Shown in pieces: positions 41,896-51,651 of a stretch of 64,000 nt of DNA. The notes beneath the pieces are model-generated. The model did no database searches. It was not told the DNA's origin and saw only the letters and a list, made by a program, of their open reading frames with translations. The stretch's first letter is position 1; every line of letters begins with the position of its first letter. The DNA comes from Liolophura sinensis. Its lineage: Eukaryota > Mollusca > Polyplacophora > Chitonida > Chitonidae. The stretch spans positions 560,501 through 624,500 of the forward strand of contig NW_027017953.1 in assembly GCF_032854445.1 (NCBI RefSeq), in the 5' to 3' direction. Made by a program: the position numbers and the translations under genes.

Positions 41896-42248
41896 TCACT
41901 TTTTTTTTCAAGCAAAAGTCACCTTACCTCGAATAACAGAACTGCGTGTACTATTACTTTCTCCTGCTTTTCATGAAGCAAATATTGACGCCCTCGATAA
42001 AACTGTTCATAATGCTGCCAGATTTTTACAAGGGTTTTGACAGTTGCCGAATAATGTACGTGTAACAGTCGACGATTTCTCACAAGTTCTATGTCGGACA
42101 ATGTGTCAGTATTTACAACCGCGGGTAAAATCCAACATGATAAATTTCACCAAAAAACCATGAAAAGTTGAAACTAACAGCAAAAAATCCGTGTAGTTAC
42201 TGCTTTTCCACAACGCAAGGCACACATGTGTAGATGAAATGTTAAGGA

Positions 42249-43045
42249 TTATAACACTGACTTTGTGTTTTCCTCTCTTTCCGCCTGTTTCTGCTTTTCA
42301 AGTTGACTGATGGCTACATCCACAAGCATGTAGAAACAACGAAACAAGTCCTCTTGTTTTCTTGGAGGTGGGGATGGGGGAGGTGTGTGTAAAGATCTGG
42401 GCGAGCAGTGAGCGTAGGGTAGTGAGTTGTCTTGCCTTTGTCTGTCTGCGGGCATGTGGAGGGACCTACTGCCGCCGTCAGAGCCCGAGTCTGACTCGCT
42501 GTAGTCATCAGACGAGGCCTCGCTGCCCGACAGGTACCCGTCCGTCTCCATGTAGCAGCTGTAAGGCGGAGTGCGACTTGGCAAACTGTCGTTTTCAGAG
42601 TCCACACTATGTTGTCGGTCCCATCGCCTGTCAAAGTCATTTTCGTCTTCTCGACACAGTTTTTTCCTCGACTGCAACTCGTCGCTCGTCTTCTCTCCGG
42701 CGTGTTTGTGTTTTCTCGTAATCGTGTACTGCAGTGGATCCTGGCCATCTCTTTTTATCATTTCCGGCAGAATTCGTCTCCGGGCGTTGATAAACCAGTT
42801 ACAAACTTGCAACACGGTCAGGTTCGCTGCTTTGGCCAGATCAACTTTTTCTTGGTCTGTTGGGTAGGCATTGTAGCGATGATCATACAGCCAAGTTTTC
42901 AGAATTCTCACAGACTCTTTCGGCAGATTTCCTCGTCTTTTTTTAGGGTCGCTGGAATCCATCAGCTCCTCTTTCATATCGAGATCCACTTTTCTCGCCC
43001 CTCGATTGTCAAAGTCCGAGTACCAAATATTTGGAGCAGCTTGAA
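42249..43045 (-). CDS. TGIF: TGIF-type TALE homeobox transcription factor, exon 2 with stop
   Basis: The main coding exon encodes the TALE homeodomain at about residues 53-115 of the predicted 282-aa protein: [10 protein letters not shown] start, three-residue loop extension with AYP (residues 77-79, the TGIF version of the TALE loop), and recognition helix [11 protein letters not shown] (WFINARRR at 101-108). The block after it ([18 protein letters not shown]) is also TGIF-typical. An acidic Ser/Asp-rich stretch and a Pro-rich segment follow. The C-terminal end has [15 protein letters not shown], matching the conserved C-terminal helix of vertebrate TGIFs. No PLDLS CtBP motif is visible. The acceptor is TTTTAG at 43046-43051, and the exon begins in phase with exon 1. 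TGIF proteins are nuclear repressors that bind CTGTCA and restrain TGF-beta/SMAD and retinoid signalling. Family assignment is firm; TGIF1 versus TGIF2 orthology is not implied. Confidence 0.96.
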
Positions 43046-43595
43046 CTAAAATTCAGAAGGAAAAAAAATCATTAACACCATTTTTGTGATATGTACCGGG
43101 AAGTACGAATATTTCACCAAGCGCCATTACTAGCACTTCATAAAAATGACACTAAAATGCAGTGACGCATTTACCCGCCAATTTTGTTTGACAGACAATT
43201 GACAGCCCGCCGAACATTATTCCAAAAGGAAATCTGATAAAAATGGCAATGCATTTTGCTGCGGATATCCCTGATAATCACACCATGAAACATTGTGAAG
43301 CTATGACAATCATTTCAAGGAAGGTAGTGAGAAGTAAACGCTAAATCCACGAACACATGCCACGCCAGTTAGAAAGTGGGCTGTCAAACTTCAGCCCGCC
43401 TGTCAACTGGTGTCCATATCACGGCTCGTCAAATCACACAAAAGACGCAAAATTACCTGAAATACCTAATCTACACGATTCTAGCACATCCCAACCTTAC
43501 AAATTAGATATTTCAGGATGATAACTCTCACACAGTTGCTCCAAAGTCTGTAAAATTCCCAGGTTTTCGTCGAACATATTGAGCGCGAAAGGAAC

Positions 43596-43605
43596 ACCAC
43601 GTGGT
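43596..43605. promoter_or_regulatory. E-box palindrome ACCACGTGGT in TGIF intron 1
   Basis: A perfect 10-bp palindrome with a CACGTG core. The identical 10 bp recurs upstream of the gene at 43884-43893. Confidence 0.4.
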
Positions 43606-43696
43606 CCACCGTACATTCAAACATGGCTTCCTTTCAACGGAACAAAATGTCAAATCTATCCACTCTGTATAGTCTCTAAACTAACGTCAAGCTTAC

Positions 43697-43748
43697 CTCT
43701 GTCGTGCGGCATGACGGAGAATGTATTCACAGGACTTTCGTACATCAT
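43697..43748 (-). CDS. TGIF: TGIF exon 1 (start codon and first 17 codons)
   Basis: Two consecutive ATG codons (43748 and 43745) open a 52-nt coding stretch reading MMYESPVNTFSVMPHDR plus one base. It ends at a strong donor AGAG/GTAAGC (donor G at 43696). The single leftover G joins TT of exon 2 to make a Val codon and keeps the frame through the homeodomain, giving a 282-aa protein with a 651-bp intron. The first 50 residues (including [15 protein letters not shown]) are not familiar from vertebrate TGIFs. No in-frame stop was found just upstream, so a longer 5' exon cannot be excluded; exon pairing is inferred from phase and splice sites only. Confidence 0.75.
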
Positions 43749-43883
43749 CGTGAGCGATTTCGCTGAGAATTTTGTACAATTTGTGAGGAAAATGTCGATG
43801 TGCGGTACAATCCACTGAAAAGCACGCCGTCACTCTGCTGGCATTTACCGCGTGTGTAGTATTTTTTTGTTTGACAGATGAAT

Positions 43884-43934
43884 ACCACGTGGTGTATTTG
43901 CATATAAATAGGACCGGTCCATTATTTGGCGGGA
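43884..43934. promoter_or_regulatory. Upstream TGIF elements: E-box, octamer, TATA-like box, E2F-like site
   Basis: In 51 bp there are ACCACGTGGT (43884-43893), the octamer ATTTGCAT (43896-43903, ATGCAAAT on the gene strand), an AT-rich TATAAATA (43903-43910; plus-strand orientation, so its use by TGIF is uncertain) and TTTGGCGGGA (43925-43934), close to the E2F consensus. They lie 140-190 bp upstream of the predicted ATG. Confidence 0.4.
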
Positions 43935-44057
43935 GATTGAAGTCAGGGGGGGAAACAGGTTTGTGGCTACTTGTTGAATGGTAAATGACATTTCCGTACT
44001 GTCAAGCGTGACATAATTGACCAGCCTGGGGCTTGAATTTGACAGTGGTTTTGACAG

Positions 44058-47000
44058 ACACAGACAACAGAACAAAGACTGGCGATCGGAGGCCTGCCTA
44101 CCAATGCAGCCAGTCTCAGTGCATGGGAAATCAGGGCCGATAGAACAGCGCAGTGAAGTTATTTACGTCACAGCCCAGAGAGAACCTGCTGTAAACAAAG
44201 GAACAAAAATGCGGACTGATTTAGAAACGTTTACTTTATTAGTTACCCACTCGGGGTATATATAACGTTTTGTTTTAACGTCTATTTCTTCTATAGACCA
44301 CAAAGAAAGTCACCAGCATAGCACTAGACACCTCGTTGAATATGCAGCTGCCCTACATGATGACCCTGGTGATACTTGTAATTTACTTTGATGCGCATGT
44401 GTATAACGTGATCCTGAGCTATTTTGTACGCACTTTTCGTGAAATTTTACTTCTTATCAATTTGGTACGACCAGATTTTTTAGCGAGAAGACTAGATTTT
44501 TGATTCGGCATATTTTATGACTCGTTTAATATCTATGTTTATGTATGACTTCATCTGGATAATAATGAAAAGTATACAGTATACGTATGCCCTACAATAT
44601 TTGCATACTTTCTGAATAAAGGCCATACATAGTTTTTAATTTTCATCTGTTGAAAACACTTCAGAAATGTAGAGAGCTGGATTATTGAAAACATTACATT
44701 GAAACACTTATTTTTGTTGTTGTTTTTTGTATGGGCCTTTTCTTATAGATTATACTTTATATTTTTAATCACATACTTGCCTTTAGTACATAGTGAGATG
44801 GAAATTAAGGGGCGGAGTAAACCAATGGAATGTGTTACAACCATGTAGGGTGTTGACAGCATACGTTTAATTACTTGTCAGCATGCATCAGCATTACATG
44901 GAGATGCCAAAACACAACTATGAGGTGGAGAGGGTCGGATCCCGTATTCTCAGGCCTGCAGGTGATAAAATCGCTTAAGTACACTTTTTAAAAGCGGGTT
45001 GAGTGGAATGACTTCAGTAAAGCCACATGAAGGCATTTCCAAAACAAATCTATATTATCTCTGCGTACTGACTTTCGCTTCCTCAACCGCAACCCCCCAC
45101 GGGTGCCAAGGCTCTGTTCCCAACCGTTCATTGCGCTATGAAGAGGTGACAAAAGAGGTTACGTAAGGTGCAAGCTTAGCCTGGCTAACCCCATGGGCTA
45201 TAGGAGGCGGGCAGGGGTGGGGACGCTGATCTGGGGTCCACAAGTTTAAGGGCCAGAGCGGTGAGTCCCTGGGTGAGAAAGTTGTGTTGTGAATAAAAAC
45301 GGCTTTGCAAAATCTGATCCAATATATACTAGATTCTTCGCTGTGTAGGATCATATGCCAACTGACTATACATGAATGGCCTATTGGAAAAATATATTGC
45401 GTTTGATAACCTGCTGATTCGTAGACTGTATGAACGAGTATGGACGACAGCGTATAGCTGCACGTATCATGCTACACTGGTATATCTGCATACATGTTTA
45501 CTTTAGTATGGCGTAAAACACTAATCAAATAAATAAATTTGTAAGTATAATTTACAGTTTTCATTAAAGTAAGCGTATACATACCCGATTCATGTTTCAG
45601 TGAAAATGTACACTGAATACATCACGATATAGACATGATGTCATATTTGTTTTTCACAACGTAGCTTTGTAGGTGTTTTGCATAAAAACTAGATGGAGAT
45701 CTAACACGTTTAGCTGATGGATATACGGGTCAGTATTCGCGATACAGACATGTATATATATGTAATATTCAGCTAATATATATCCTGTAATCTGCATATT
45801 TTTTGAAGTGAAAAGTTGTCGAATCTTTGTACATTTTAACGTGCATATATATTTGAAGACAAATAACATGTGCGTACGCATATATCACATATACAGGGTG
45901 CTGGCATTGTATCTTATCTCTAAATGCTACTCATATCCCTCATGCACCTATATATGAGGCTGCTTATTATTAAAATATGTCACGTCGCGGAATTATCAAA
46001 TCTGTTGTAAGGGACTAAAGACGTACAAAAGTTAAGATCTACTACAAACAAATATTTGTGAATGTAGGAATCTAATATAGGCCTAGAGAACACAACACGT
46101 GTAAATGTTATATCCAGCTGAAGATTTTTCTGTTAAACACGCTCCCCCCCAACATGCATAGTCAGAATTACAGATTATGGACAGCACAGAAAACCCCAGG
46201 TACCCCACCCTTGGGTATGAAACGTGGACGCAGTCATCAGTCATGGCTGACAAAGAAGATGGTACATATAATGGCAGGATATAACCACCACACACTCTTC
46301 TCAATCCTGTAAGCTCCCCCCCCCGCCCCCCCAAGCCACTTGTCTGCTTCATCTGCGGGCAGTCTATGCGGGTGGTAGTCATGATACTGTGTCAGCATTC
46401 ACTCCCATCGTGAACGTCACAGTGAACACCTTAATTTGCTGCTGAAGCAAGGTTCATCAGATGGGGAGAGGTCAGTATAATGTGGGGGTAGGATCGATTC
46501 AGGGAGAGGGTGGGATCGATGCAGGGTTGGGGGTGAGGTTTTATGTGGTAATCGTATAATTAAGTGACTATATCCAAAATTAAGATTCAAGTGATGTATG
46601 TGCAGCGTCAGAATAAGTGTAACAGTTTGTGGGACGTGTCACTGCTGTACATTGGATGTCACCATACACGTGACACACACGCCTTTCCACAACGCTTGAC
46701 ATGCATTTCTCTCTCTCCATATATATATATTAACTACAGGTTTGGTGGCAATCCCACGAGGACAACATTTTAATGAAAGTGCACTAACCGATATTAAGAA
46801 AAATATATTACAAAGTTTTGTGTATTACATATCAGGGGCCTTCATTCGCTGAGTAGGAAATACAGTACAAGCTAAAATTCGAGTCATCCAGATATTGATG
46901 GCCACCAAACGATTTAAATATAAGTTAGAATATATAGGATACATTTCGGTTTTGACGAATGGAAATGTCAGTCCGGCCAGTATTTTAAATCTGGTAAGGT

Positions 47001-48790: not shown

Positions 48791-49028
48791 TCGTTTGACA
48801 GAGTTTGACAGAGTTTATCCATGTAACGACTATATAAATTTGCATTTATGCACAATGGGTCTCGGTGGGCCTACATATATGGTCAGTTACGACAGATTTG
48901 ATGGGCGACTGACATCTGGAGCATATATTCACTGTGATTTACACAGACACTGCGTGGGTTGATATGGGCTTATCGATCAGAAATCTAACTATAAAGGAAG
49001 CAATCTCTCTACATTTCTATGTCCTTCG
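48791..49028 (+). repeat. Direct duplication, left copy
   Basis: From TCGTTTGACAGAGTTTGACA to ACATTTCTATGTCCTTCG. It is nearly identical to 49337-49564 except for a 10-bp tandem GAGTTTGACA insertion. It directly abuts the preceding higher-order repeat. Confidence 0.92.
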
Positions 49029-49336
49029 GTTTTACATACAGTTAAAAGCAAAAACTTGGATTGGATGACGTAAGCGGAATCAGCTGCGCCCTCAGATTAT
49101 AGAAATACCCCGTACCTGATTTGTTAAAACTGAACATGACAGCGCTTTTGACTGGCTCCGTGTTCTCGATTTGCTTGCTTTGACCTGCAATATATCGGTT
49201 GTGCAAGATTTAAAAAATAAATTTTTCTTTTAAAAACCCCCGTTGGGATACTTTATCTGGGCTTGCACACTTGGTTTTGCATTTTCTTTTCTTTTAAGGG
49301 CCACGTAAGATTACAAAGTATATGATGTTGCCACCC

Positions 49337-49564
49337 TCGTTTGACAGAGTTTATCCATGTAACGACTATATAAATTTGCATTTATGCACAATGGGTCTCG
49401 GTGGGCCTACATATATGGTCAGTTACGACAGATTTGATGGGCGACTGACATCTGGAGCATATATTCACTGTGATTTACACAGACACTGCGTGGGTTGATA
49501 TGGGCTTATCGATCAGAAATCTAACTATAAAGGAAGCAATCTCTCTACATTTCTATGTCCTTCG
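49337..49564 (+). repeat. Direct duplication, right copy
   Basis: Matches 48791-49028, 308 bp downstream. The intervening 49029-49336 is unique, AT-rich and without ORFs. The arrangement could be a segmental duplication or a TRIM-like element; TG...CA ends and a primer-binding site are not evident. Confidence 0.92.
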
Positions 49565-49743
49565 ATTTACTCCTCAAACCTTACTTCGATCAACTTCACA
49601 CTCGCCTGGTGTATATTTCCCTGGCTGGCGGGAAACAGTGCGTATTGCTCGTGGAAAAAGACAATAATTGCGTAATAATGGGACACTGCCTTCAAGTTAC
49701 ACCGAACATGTTCTTTCTAAGACGTAAAACAAAAACACGATCA

Positions 49744-50968: not shown

Positions 50969-51042
50969 ATTACTCAAATGCTCACAGTTATTGTGTCAGA
51001 TCATGGTGCACGAAAAGGGTTAAAGATAACTGAGGCAAGGAA

Positions 51043-51651
51043 ATGGAAGATAAAGATCGGATGAGTGGGGACTGTCCGGGTACCCCGCAACCCACCGCAA
51101 GGCCGGATAGCGTCACAGACTGGAGCAGTAGCAATGATCTTAGGTCCTTACCACCAAGGAACAAGATGACAGACAAAGAAATCATCAAGCAGCTGAGAAG
51201 AGAAGGCCTTATCGGCGGTTACATCCGGCTACAACCCCTGAGGAAAACTCGGAGTGGGAATATCTCTTTCTACGTCCCCCTCCACATGATAGACAATAAA
51301 CGCCACCTAGGTGCCGTCAAGCCACCGAGGCTGCTCAAAAAGATGGACGAGAGCCGTCGATCTGAGAAGGCCTTCCAGCACATAAGAGATCGTCTGGAAG
51401 AAGCGTACAGGCGGCGCGAACAGAAACTGCAATTCGTGGAGAGCCGAGCCCGAAGCAACCGGACGAGAAGCAAAGAGGCCGTGGCGAGAACGGAATGGAG
51501 GCGAGCGGAGATCCGGCGGAAGCAGAATGAGAAACACGAGAACATCATCAAACAGGCGGAGGAACACGCCAAGAAAGAAGTGCAGGAGCAGAGGGAATTG
51601 TCAGGTCATTGCTCAGATGTCGAGATGATGACTTCCAGCAAATGGGGCTAG
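51043..51651 (+). CDS. Basic coiled-coil protein, stathmin-domain-like, single exon
   Basis: A 202-aa ORF with ATG at 51043 and an in-frame TGA just upstream (51031), so this start is well fixed. Codon content and complexity are gene-like, unlike the repeat ORFs around. Residues 57-82 (GGYIRLQPLRKT, then SGNISFYVPL) and 92-101 (VKPPRLLKKM) precede a long charged helix (about 103-187) with RLEEAYRRREQ and EEHAKKEVQE. This order, a short beta-like N-terminal strand, a PPRL turn and one long helix with a RRREQ-like step, resembles stathmin-domain proteins (possibly STMND1-like), which bind tubulin. Similarity is moderate and was judged by eye. A plain coiled-coil protein is the alternative. No introns are seen, so a retrocopy is possible, but the frame is intact and a rich upstream region exists. 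No clear AATAAA follows; ATTAAA lies near 52087. Confidence 0.75.
   Translation: MEDKDRMSGDCPGTPQPTARPDSVTDWSSSNDLRSLPPRNKMTDKEIIKQLRREGLIGGYIRLQPLRKTRSGNISFYVPLHMIDNKRHLGAVKPPRLLKKMDESRRSEKAFQHIRDRLEEAYRRREQKLQFVESRARSNRTRSKEAVARTEWRRAEIRRKQNEKHENIIKQAEEHAKKEVQEQRELSGHCSDVEMMTSSKWG

Follow-up and report, generated by a model that had tools for sequence, protein, structure and literature searches.

The locus described here is a TGIF homeobox gene of the chiton Liolophura sinensis, which is read on the minus strand of a 64-kb stretch of genomic DNA (the window, i.e., the whole stretch that was analysed; positions without a prefix are those of the window). The gene model, which was derived from splice signals and not from RNA, encodes 282 amino acids. 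Its second coding exon matches Pfam Homeobox_KN (E 4.4e-19), and the best PDB matches are human TGIF1 (E 4.9e-35) and TGIF2LX, followed by PKNOX1 (3.7e-17) and Meis (1.5e-14). This TALE homeodomain, nearest to that of human TGIF1, bears out the name given to the gene in an earlier reading made from the letters of the window (the sequence-only reading). The TGIF C-terminus resembles a Sin3-binding helix, a likeness judged only by eye against the MAD1 helix printed in PMC5687616.

An exact letter search of the window found eight copies of the heptamer CTGTCAA/TTGACAG within 870 bp over this gene (43188-44057; Table 1), four of them 123-309 bp upstream of the ATG and four in intron 1. All eight starts named by the sequence-only reading were recovered and their strands assigned, as was its ninth copy in the 3′ flank. 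The scattered copies that it listed elsewhere are correct within a few bases, but seven others had been overlooked (1807, 9020, 11337, 41769, 42628, 44853, and 47285), and the one at 42628 lies within TGIF coding exon 2. The copy at 43871 is possibly near the TGIF transcription start. The flank TTTGACAG was found at 5 of the 8 TGIF sites and at 66 of 172 control sites, numbers too small to use.

Table 1. Features of the TGIF gene and its heptamer array (window positions)
Feature	Position	Strand	Basis
Heptamer CTGTCAA, TGIF upstream, 303-309 bp from ATG	44051..44057	-	motif search
Heptamer CTGTCAA, TGIF upstream; copy at 44051 is 12 bp off, same orientation	44039..44045	-	motif search
Heptamer CTGTCAA, TGIF upstream, orientation reversed	43999..44005	+	motif search
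E2F-like site TTTGGCGGGAGA (presumed name)	43925..43936		read by eye
Octamer- and TATA-like block ATTTGCATATAAATAGG (presumed name)	43896..43912		read by eye
Heptamer CTGTCAA, TGIF upstream, 123 bp from ATG	43871..43877	-	motif search
TGIF coding exon 1 (MMYESPVNTFSVMPHDR), ATG to donor GT	43697..43748	-	splice signals
TGIF intron 1, with 4 of the 8 heptamers	43046..43696	-	donor and acceptor read
Heptamer CTGTCAA, TGIF intron 1; copy at 43381 is 19 bp off	43400..43406	+	motif search
Heptamer CTGTCAA, TGIF intron 1	43381..43387	+	motif search
Heptamer CTGTCAA, TGIF intron 1; copy at 43188 is 11 bp off	43199..43205	-	motif search
Heptamer CTGTCAA, TGIF intron 1	43188..43194	-	motif search
TGIF coding exon 2, TALE homeodomain	42249..43045	-	ORF, Pfam, PDB match
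Lone heptamer 3′ of the TGIF stop codon (ninth copy)	42037..42043	-	motif search

Two other blocks lie among the upstream heptamers, which we take to be octamer/TATA-like and E2F-like motifs. The former reads well on the plus strand; on the TGIF strand, where it is TATTTATA, the resemblance is poorer. Given this plus-strand TATA-like block, there may be an unannotated divergent partner gene; none of the seven surrounding open reading frames gave a Pfam match at E 0.1. A 205-aa open frame at 51034-51651 on the plus strand has a protein-like charged composition and no Pfam match at E 0.001.

The window contains 26 heptamers in total, compared with a mean of 12.4 in 100 shuffles (sd 3.6, largest 22). 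CTGTCAA itself is somewhat common in the genome, with 131,254 copies in 609.46 Mb and 110,346 copies of the reversed word used as control, and the genome rate gives an expectation of 0.19 heptamers per 870 bp, compared with the eight observed at TGIF. The sequence-only reading had put this expectation at about 0.1, about half of the genome-based value; the genome-wide count and the shuffled-sequence statistics, both of which it had proposed, are those given here, and by the former the cluster stays exceptional. With the genome rate, the Poisson probability of at least eight copies comes to 3e-11; with the rate found upstream of Fox genes it is 2e-9. Both values apply to a single 870-bp stretch with sites taken as independent. 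About 700,000 such stretches make up the genome, and eight copies by chance would still be rare.

The clustering of any 7-mer was also asked about, because the heptamer had been picked by eye. By raw 7-mer counts the cluster would appear ordinary, since 433 of 7,967 canonical words reach eight when tandem arrays are included, but masking of the arrays removes this effect; naive k-mer clustering statistics are misleading in this window because of its very high minisatellite content. In the TRF-masked window (48,867 bases left), CTGTCAA is the sole 7-mer with eight copies per 870 bp, the runner-up having six. Third-order Markov simulations (n = 60) gave a top 7-mer with seven copies in one run and with four to six in all others. 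A comparison of the canonical 7-mers of the same composition within the 870 bp (n = 630) gave eight for CTGTCAA and at most two for every other word. Over its 64 kb, the window yielded 87 TRF rows. It also holds a segment of ~220 bp duplicated ~540 bp apart (48795-49030 and 49341-49565, ends approximate), whose heptamers are a trio already listed by the sequence-only reading.

The presence of three close pairs in the array had been taken as a sign of cooperative binding, a suggestion that finds no support in the genome: tandem arrays included, there are 106 same-orientation pairs at gaps of 3-5 bp vs. 109 for the reversed-word control, and 4,068 vs. 4,150 when gaps of 0-40 bp are allowed. The neighbourhoods of 58 close pairs (drawn from 100 listed of the 106, after removal of the plainly tandem pairs and of most pairs listed beyond C8:20251487) hold 16 further heptamers, where 15.0 would be expected. 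The pair stands alone in 45 of them, while 11 have three copies, one has four (L079), and one has five (L074). The TGIF cluster is distinguished by copy number and not by a genome-wide spacing rule.

A profile search of the genome gave 56 Homeobox_KN matches, from which 15 regions were taken. The homeodomain was readable in 14 of them (the exception being L015), and no second TGIF was present among these 14; all but one of the six matches at C6 12.7-14.8 Mb, most of the tandem-array copies, and a number of weak matches lie outside this reading. Two further genes were located by a Meis_PKNOX_N profile search. The one at C6:66.15 Mb, which begins MAQR|gtaagt and has YENDLPHYGSMD in the following exon, we take to be Meis. 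Upstream of it, four heptamers lie in 167 bp, 103-269 bp from the ATG (L116:1140-1306, C6 about 66.1535 Mb), and the 301 bp counted from the ATG contain every other word of the same composition at most once. One of these four sites (L116:1255) has the form TGATTGACAG, a PBX-MEIS composite. The 9 kb upstream of Meis hold seven heptamers vs. 1.9 expected, and the cluster of four in 167 bp has a P of 7e-8, a value that takes its span from the hits themselves and carries no correction for the 9 kb searched.

The second Meis_PKNOX_N gene, presumably Pknox by elimination, has three heptamers in 9 kb (1.9 expected). About 3.8 kb before the N-domain exon, a CpG-rich stretch holds two of them, whose starts are separated by 205 bp, and the third is another 0.8 kb away; enrichment at this gene is at most weak. 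The upstream regions of 11 other TALE genes, which are presumably Pbx, four Irx, four SPILE-like genes, Mkx, and one other TALE gene, contain no heptamer cluster, the maximum being two copies per 870 bp; together they hold 12 heptamers in 39.4 kb (0.305 per kb vs. 0.215 genome-wide). The absence of clusters from these genes is weak evidence because their transcription starts are unmapped. A further region with two SPILE-like array units (L014), which is outside the 11-region count, has three heptamers in 4.7 kb.

With regard to the protein that would bind the array, it was reported that Tgif2 represses a reporter carrying two copies of CTGTCAA (PMC1402312), and CTGTCAA has been used as a target sequence for silkworm TGIF (PMC3494694). 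The sequence-only reading held that TGIF binds this core and represses, which agrees with the Tgif2 reporter but not with the description of fly TGIFs as activators (PMC3494694). Its conclusion of negative autoregulation stands in so far as the gene is TGIF and the cluster survives the controls, but the binder is not unique and the sign is ambiguous. In addition, TGACAG is known as the HEXA site of Prep/Meis monomers (PMC6023610) and as the MEIS core (PMC11584712). Since TGACAG is equally a MEIS/PREP site and Meis has a cluster of its own, TGIF is not the only candidate binder. The 5′ TGAT PBX half-site of the composite TGATTGACAG was found at none of the eight TGIF sites, and PBX-free binding, by TGIF or by MEIS/PKNOX, would therefore be expected. 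Read from the letters, TGIF binding cannot be separated from MEIS/PKNOX binding, nor repression from activation. In mouse cells, Tgif1 was reported to rise after knock-out of Tgif2, which its authors read as compensation (PMC13308598); the rise would fit cross-repression as well.

The 870-bp stretch is most likely a genuine homotypic array of TALE sites, and autoregulation appears to be its likeliest use. Our preferred explanation, with a probability of roughly 0.55, is a homotypic TALE cluster that would serve negative autoregulation of TGIF under competition from MEIS/PKNOX. What the data establish directly is the presence of the sites, the identity of the gene, the enrichment, and the outcome of the controls. 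Sites of the TALE-homeodomain type, with a TGACAG core that TGIF, MEIS, and PREP/PKNOX all bind, would be spread over the upstream region and first intron of TGIF, where the TGIF protein would occupy them without PBX and recruit co-repressors, and the TGIF gene would thereby be turned down. MEIS or PKNOX may compete for these sites, and the cluster would therefore read the balance between TGIF and MEIS. Since a matching cluster lies upstream of Meis, auto- and cross-regulation within the TALE set is suggested. Occupancy, the identity of the binder, the use of co-repressors, and the sign of the effect are what we infer.

The Meis parallel is the interesting extension of the TGIF finding. Elsewhere, Tgif is a repressor and Meis an activator. 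The dense arrays of one site that both genes have 100-310 bp before their ATG could conceivably form a ratio-sensing balance switch, possibly old in animals, in which both proteins would compete at both promoters, an idea that we put forward tentatively and regard as rather doubtful.

The array may instead be mainly an input of MEIS/PKNOX, with or without TGIF, whereby TALE activators would switch on or set TGIF and TGIF itself would play a minor part there. We consider this unlikely, although the HEXA identity of TGACAG (PMC6023610, PMC11584712) and the presence of both Meis and a Pknox-like gene in the genome speak for it, as does the enrichment of MEIS1/2 motifs in TGIF2 peaks (PMC13308598), which points to sites common to both factors. 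However, a PBX half-site is lacking beside all eight TGIF sites, whereas the Meis cluster has one, and in breast cancer cells MEIS inhibitors were reported to lower MEIS and raise TGIF1 (PMC13306155), a result that fits MEIS autoactivation and not activation of TGIF by MEIS.

Positive autoregulation, in which TGIF would activate itself through its own array as an on-switch, appears less likely again. Fly TGIFs have been described as activators (PMC3494694) and in the sea star hesC receives positive input from Tgif (PMC7719182), but vertebrate TGIFs repress via CTGTCAA (PMC1402312), and the C-terminus of the TGIF described here has its likeness, seen only by eye, to a Sin3-binding helix (MAD1 helix, PMC5687616).

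It is improbable that the cluster arose by chance or is neutral, without any regulatory role. Three of the 870-bp controls do reach three to five copies (L074 five, L079 four, and the Fox locus L126 three), which shows that small clusters can arise by chance or otherwise, but the Poisson values given above, at the genome and the Fox rate alike, make eight copies rare even over ~700,000 stretches, and the stretch overlies a gene whose product is known to bind the word.

That the heptamer is a general promoter element, or belongs to a dispersed or tandem repeat, is highly improbable: some tandem arrays elsewhere contain it and Fox upstream regions are mildly enriched in it, but NRF1-type loci show no excess, and the stretch at 43188-44057 has no tandem array, short matches only, and a single match in the genome. 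TRF reported no arrays between 38035 and 47931, a self-comparison of 43000-44300 gave just two 14-nt direct matches and one 15-nt inverted pair, one 14-nt direct match being common to the heptamer copies at 43188 and 43871, and window positions 43100-44100 had only one match in the genome search.

As a proxy for promoters, the NRF1 palindrome TGCGCATGCGCA was used, which occurs at 123 places in the genome vs. six for the reversed word, an approximately twentyfold excess. In 40 NRF1-type loci (64.0 kb; taken in order from 50 distinct places listed, among the 123 in the genome), 15 heptamers were found vs. 13.8 expected, with a maximum of two per locus, which disfavours the heptamer as a general promoter element; in five cases out of the 15, the heptamer is no more than 100 bp away from the NRF1 site. 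The Fox set comprised 20 of 71 forkhead matches, which were picked for long open frames, one per array; each region spans the 1.8 kb that precede the forkhead domain and so includes some coding sequence. These 20 regions (36.0 kb) contained 13 heptamers vs. 7.8 expected, with a maximum of three per 870 bp. Developmental promoters may be mildly enriched in the heptamer, but none comes near the TGIF level, and a weak promoter tendency of the word is possible because of the Fox counts and the five NRF1-proximal copies. The forkhead matches themselves include local arrays, with 15 at C6:23103435-23176712 and further runs on C8 at 46.58-46.65 Mb and 53.13-53.17 Mb.

Several known systems bear a likeness to the autoregulatory array preferred here. 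The repeated heptamer is the same as that through which a TGIF protein represses the Tgif2 reporter (PMC1402312), but that promoter is artificial and has two copies, whereas the present array is natural and comprises eight copies on TGIF itself. It was also reported that MEIS1 is present on promoters and introns of MEIS1 and MEIS2 (PMC11584712), which is likewise a case of a TALE factor with core TGACAG on its own promoter and introns; those data are vertebrate ChIP-seq, concern MEIS and not TGIF, and come with no site array in the available text. The HEXA and DECA sites of zebrafish (PMC6023610) have counterparts in the eight TGIF sites and in the one Meis site of the TGATTGACAG type, respectively, but are located at enhancers of a TALE-dependent network, whereas here the sites are stacked on TALE genes. 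Predicted sites of a transcription factor on its own gene, near the transcription start, are already a recognised pattern (PMC2527657), of which TGIF would be an unusually dense example; the earlier evidence was conservation in vertebrates, with neither TGIF nor MEIS named in the text, and the present evidence is density.

Competition of TGIF and MEIS for overlapping sites has been described, with leukaemia and breast cancer among the settings (PMC13306155). No report of TGIF autoregulation for a mollusc homeobox gene was present in the literature searched, which excluded most subscription journals, so prior publication is possible. To our knowledge, how TGIF and MEIS levels are set against each other is not well worked out. 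The eight identical TGIF sites and their match at Meis would make auto- and cross-regulation of TALE genes testable with one reporter and a few site mutants.

TALE homeobox genes have also undergone a large tandem expansion in this genome. An array at C5:1098499-1163070 contains 28 TALE homeobox matches ~2,276 bp apart, whose members are mostly 332-aa open frames, one of them with a stop. Their homeodomain is presumably like the spiralian SPILE class. Tandem, near-identical SPILE copies have been reported in the limpet Lottia (PMC8524836).
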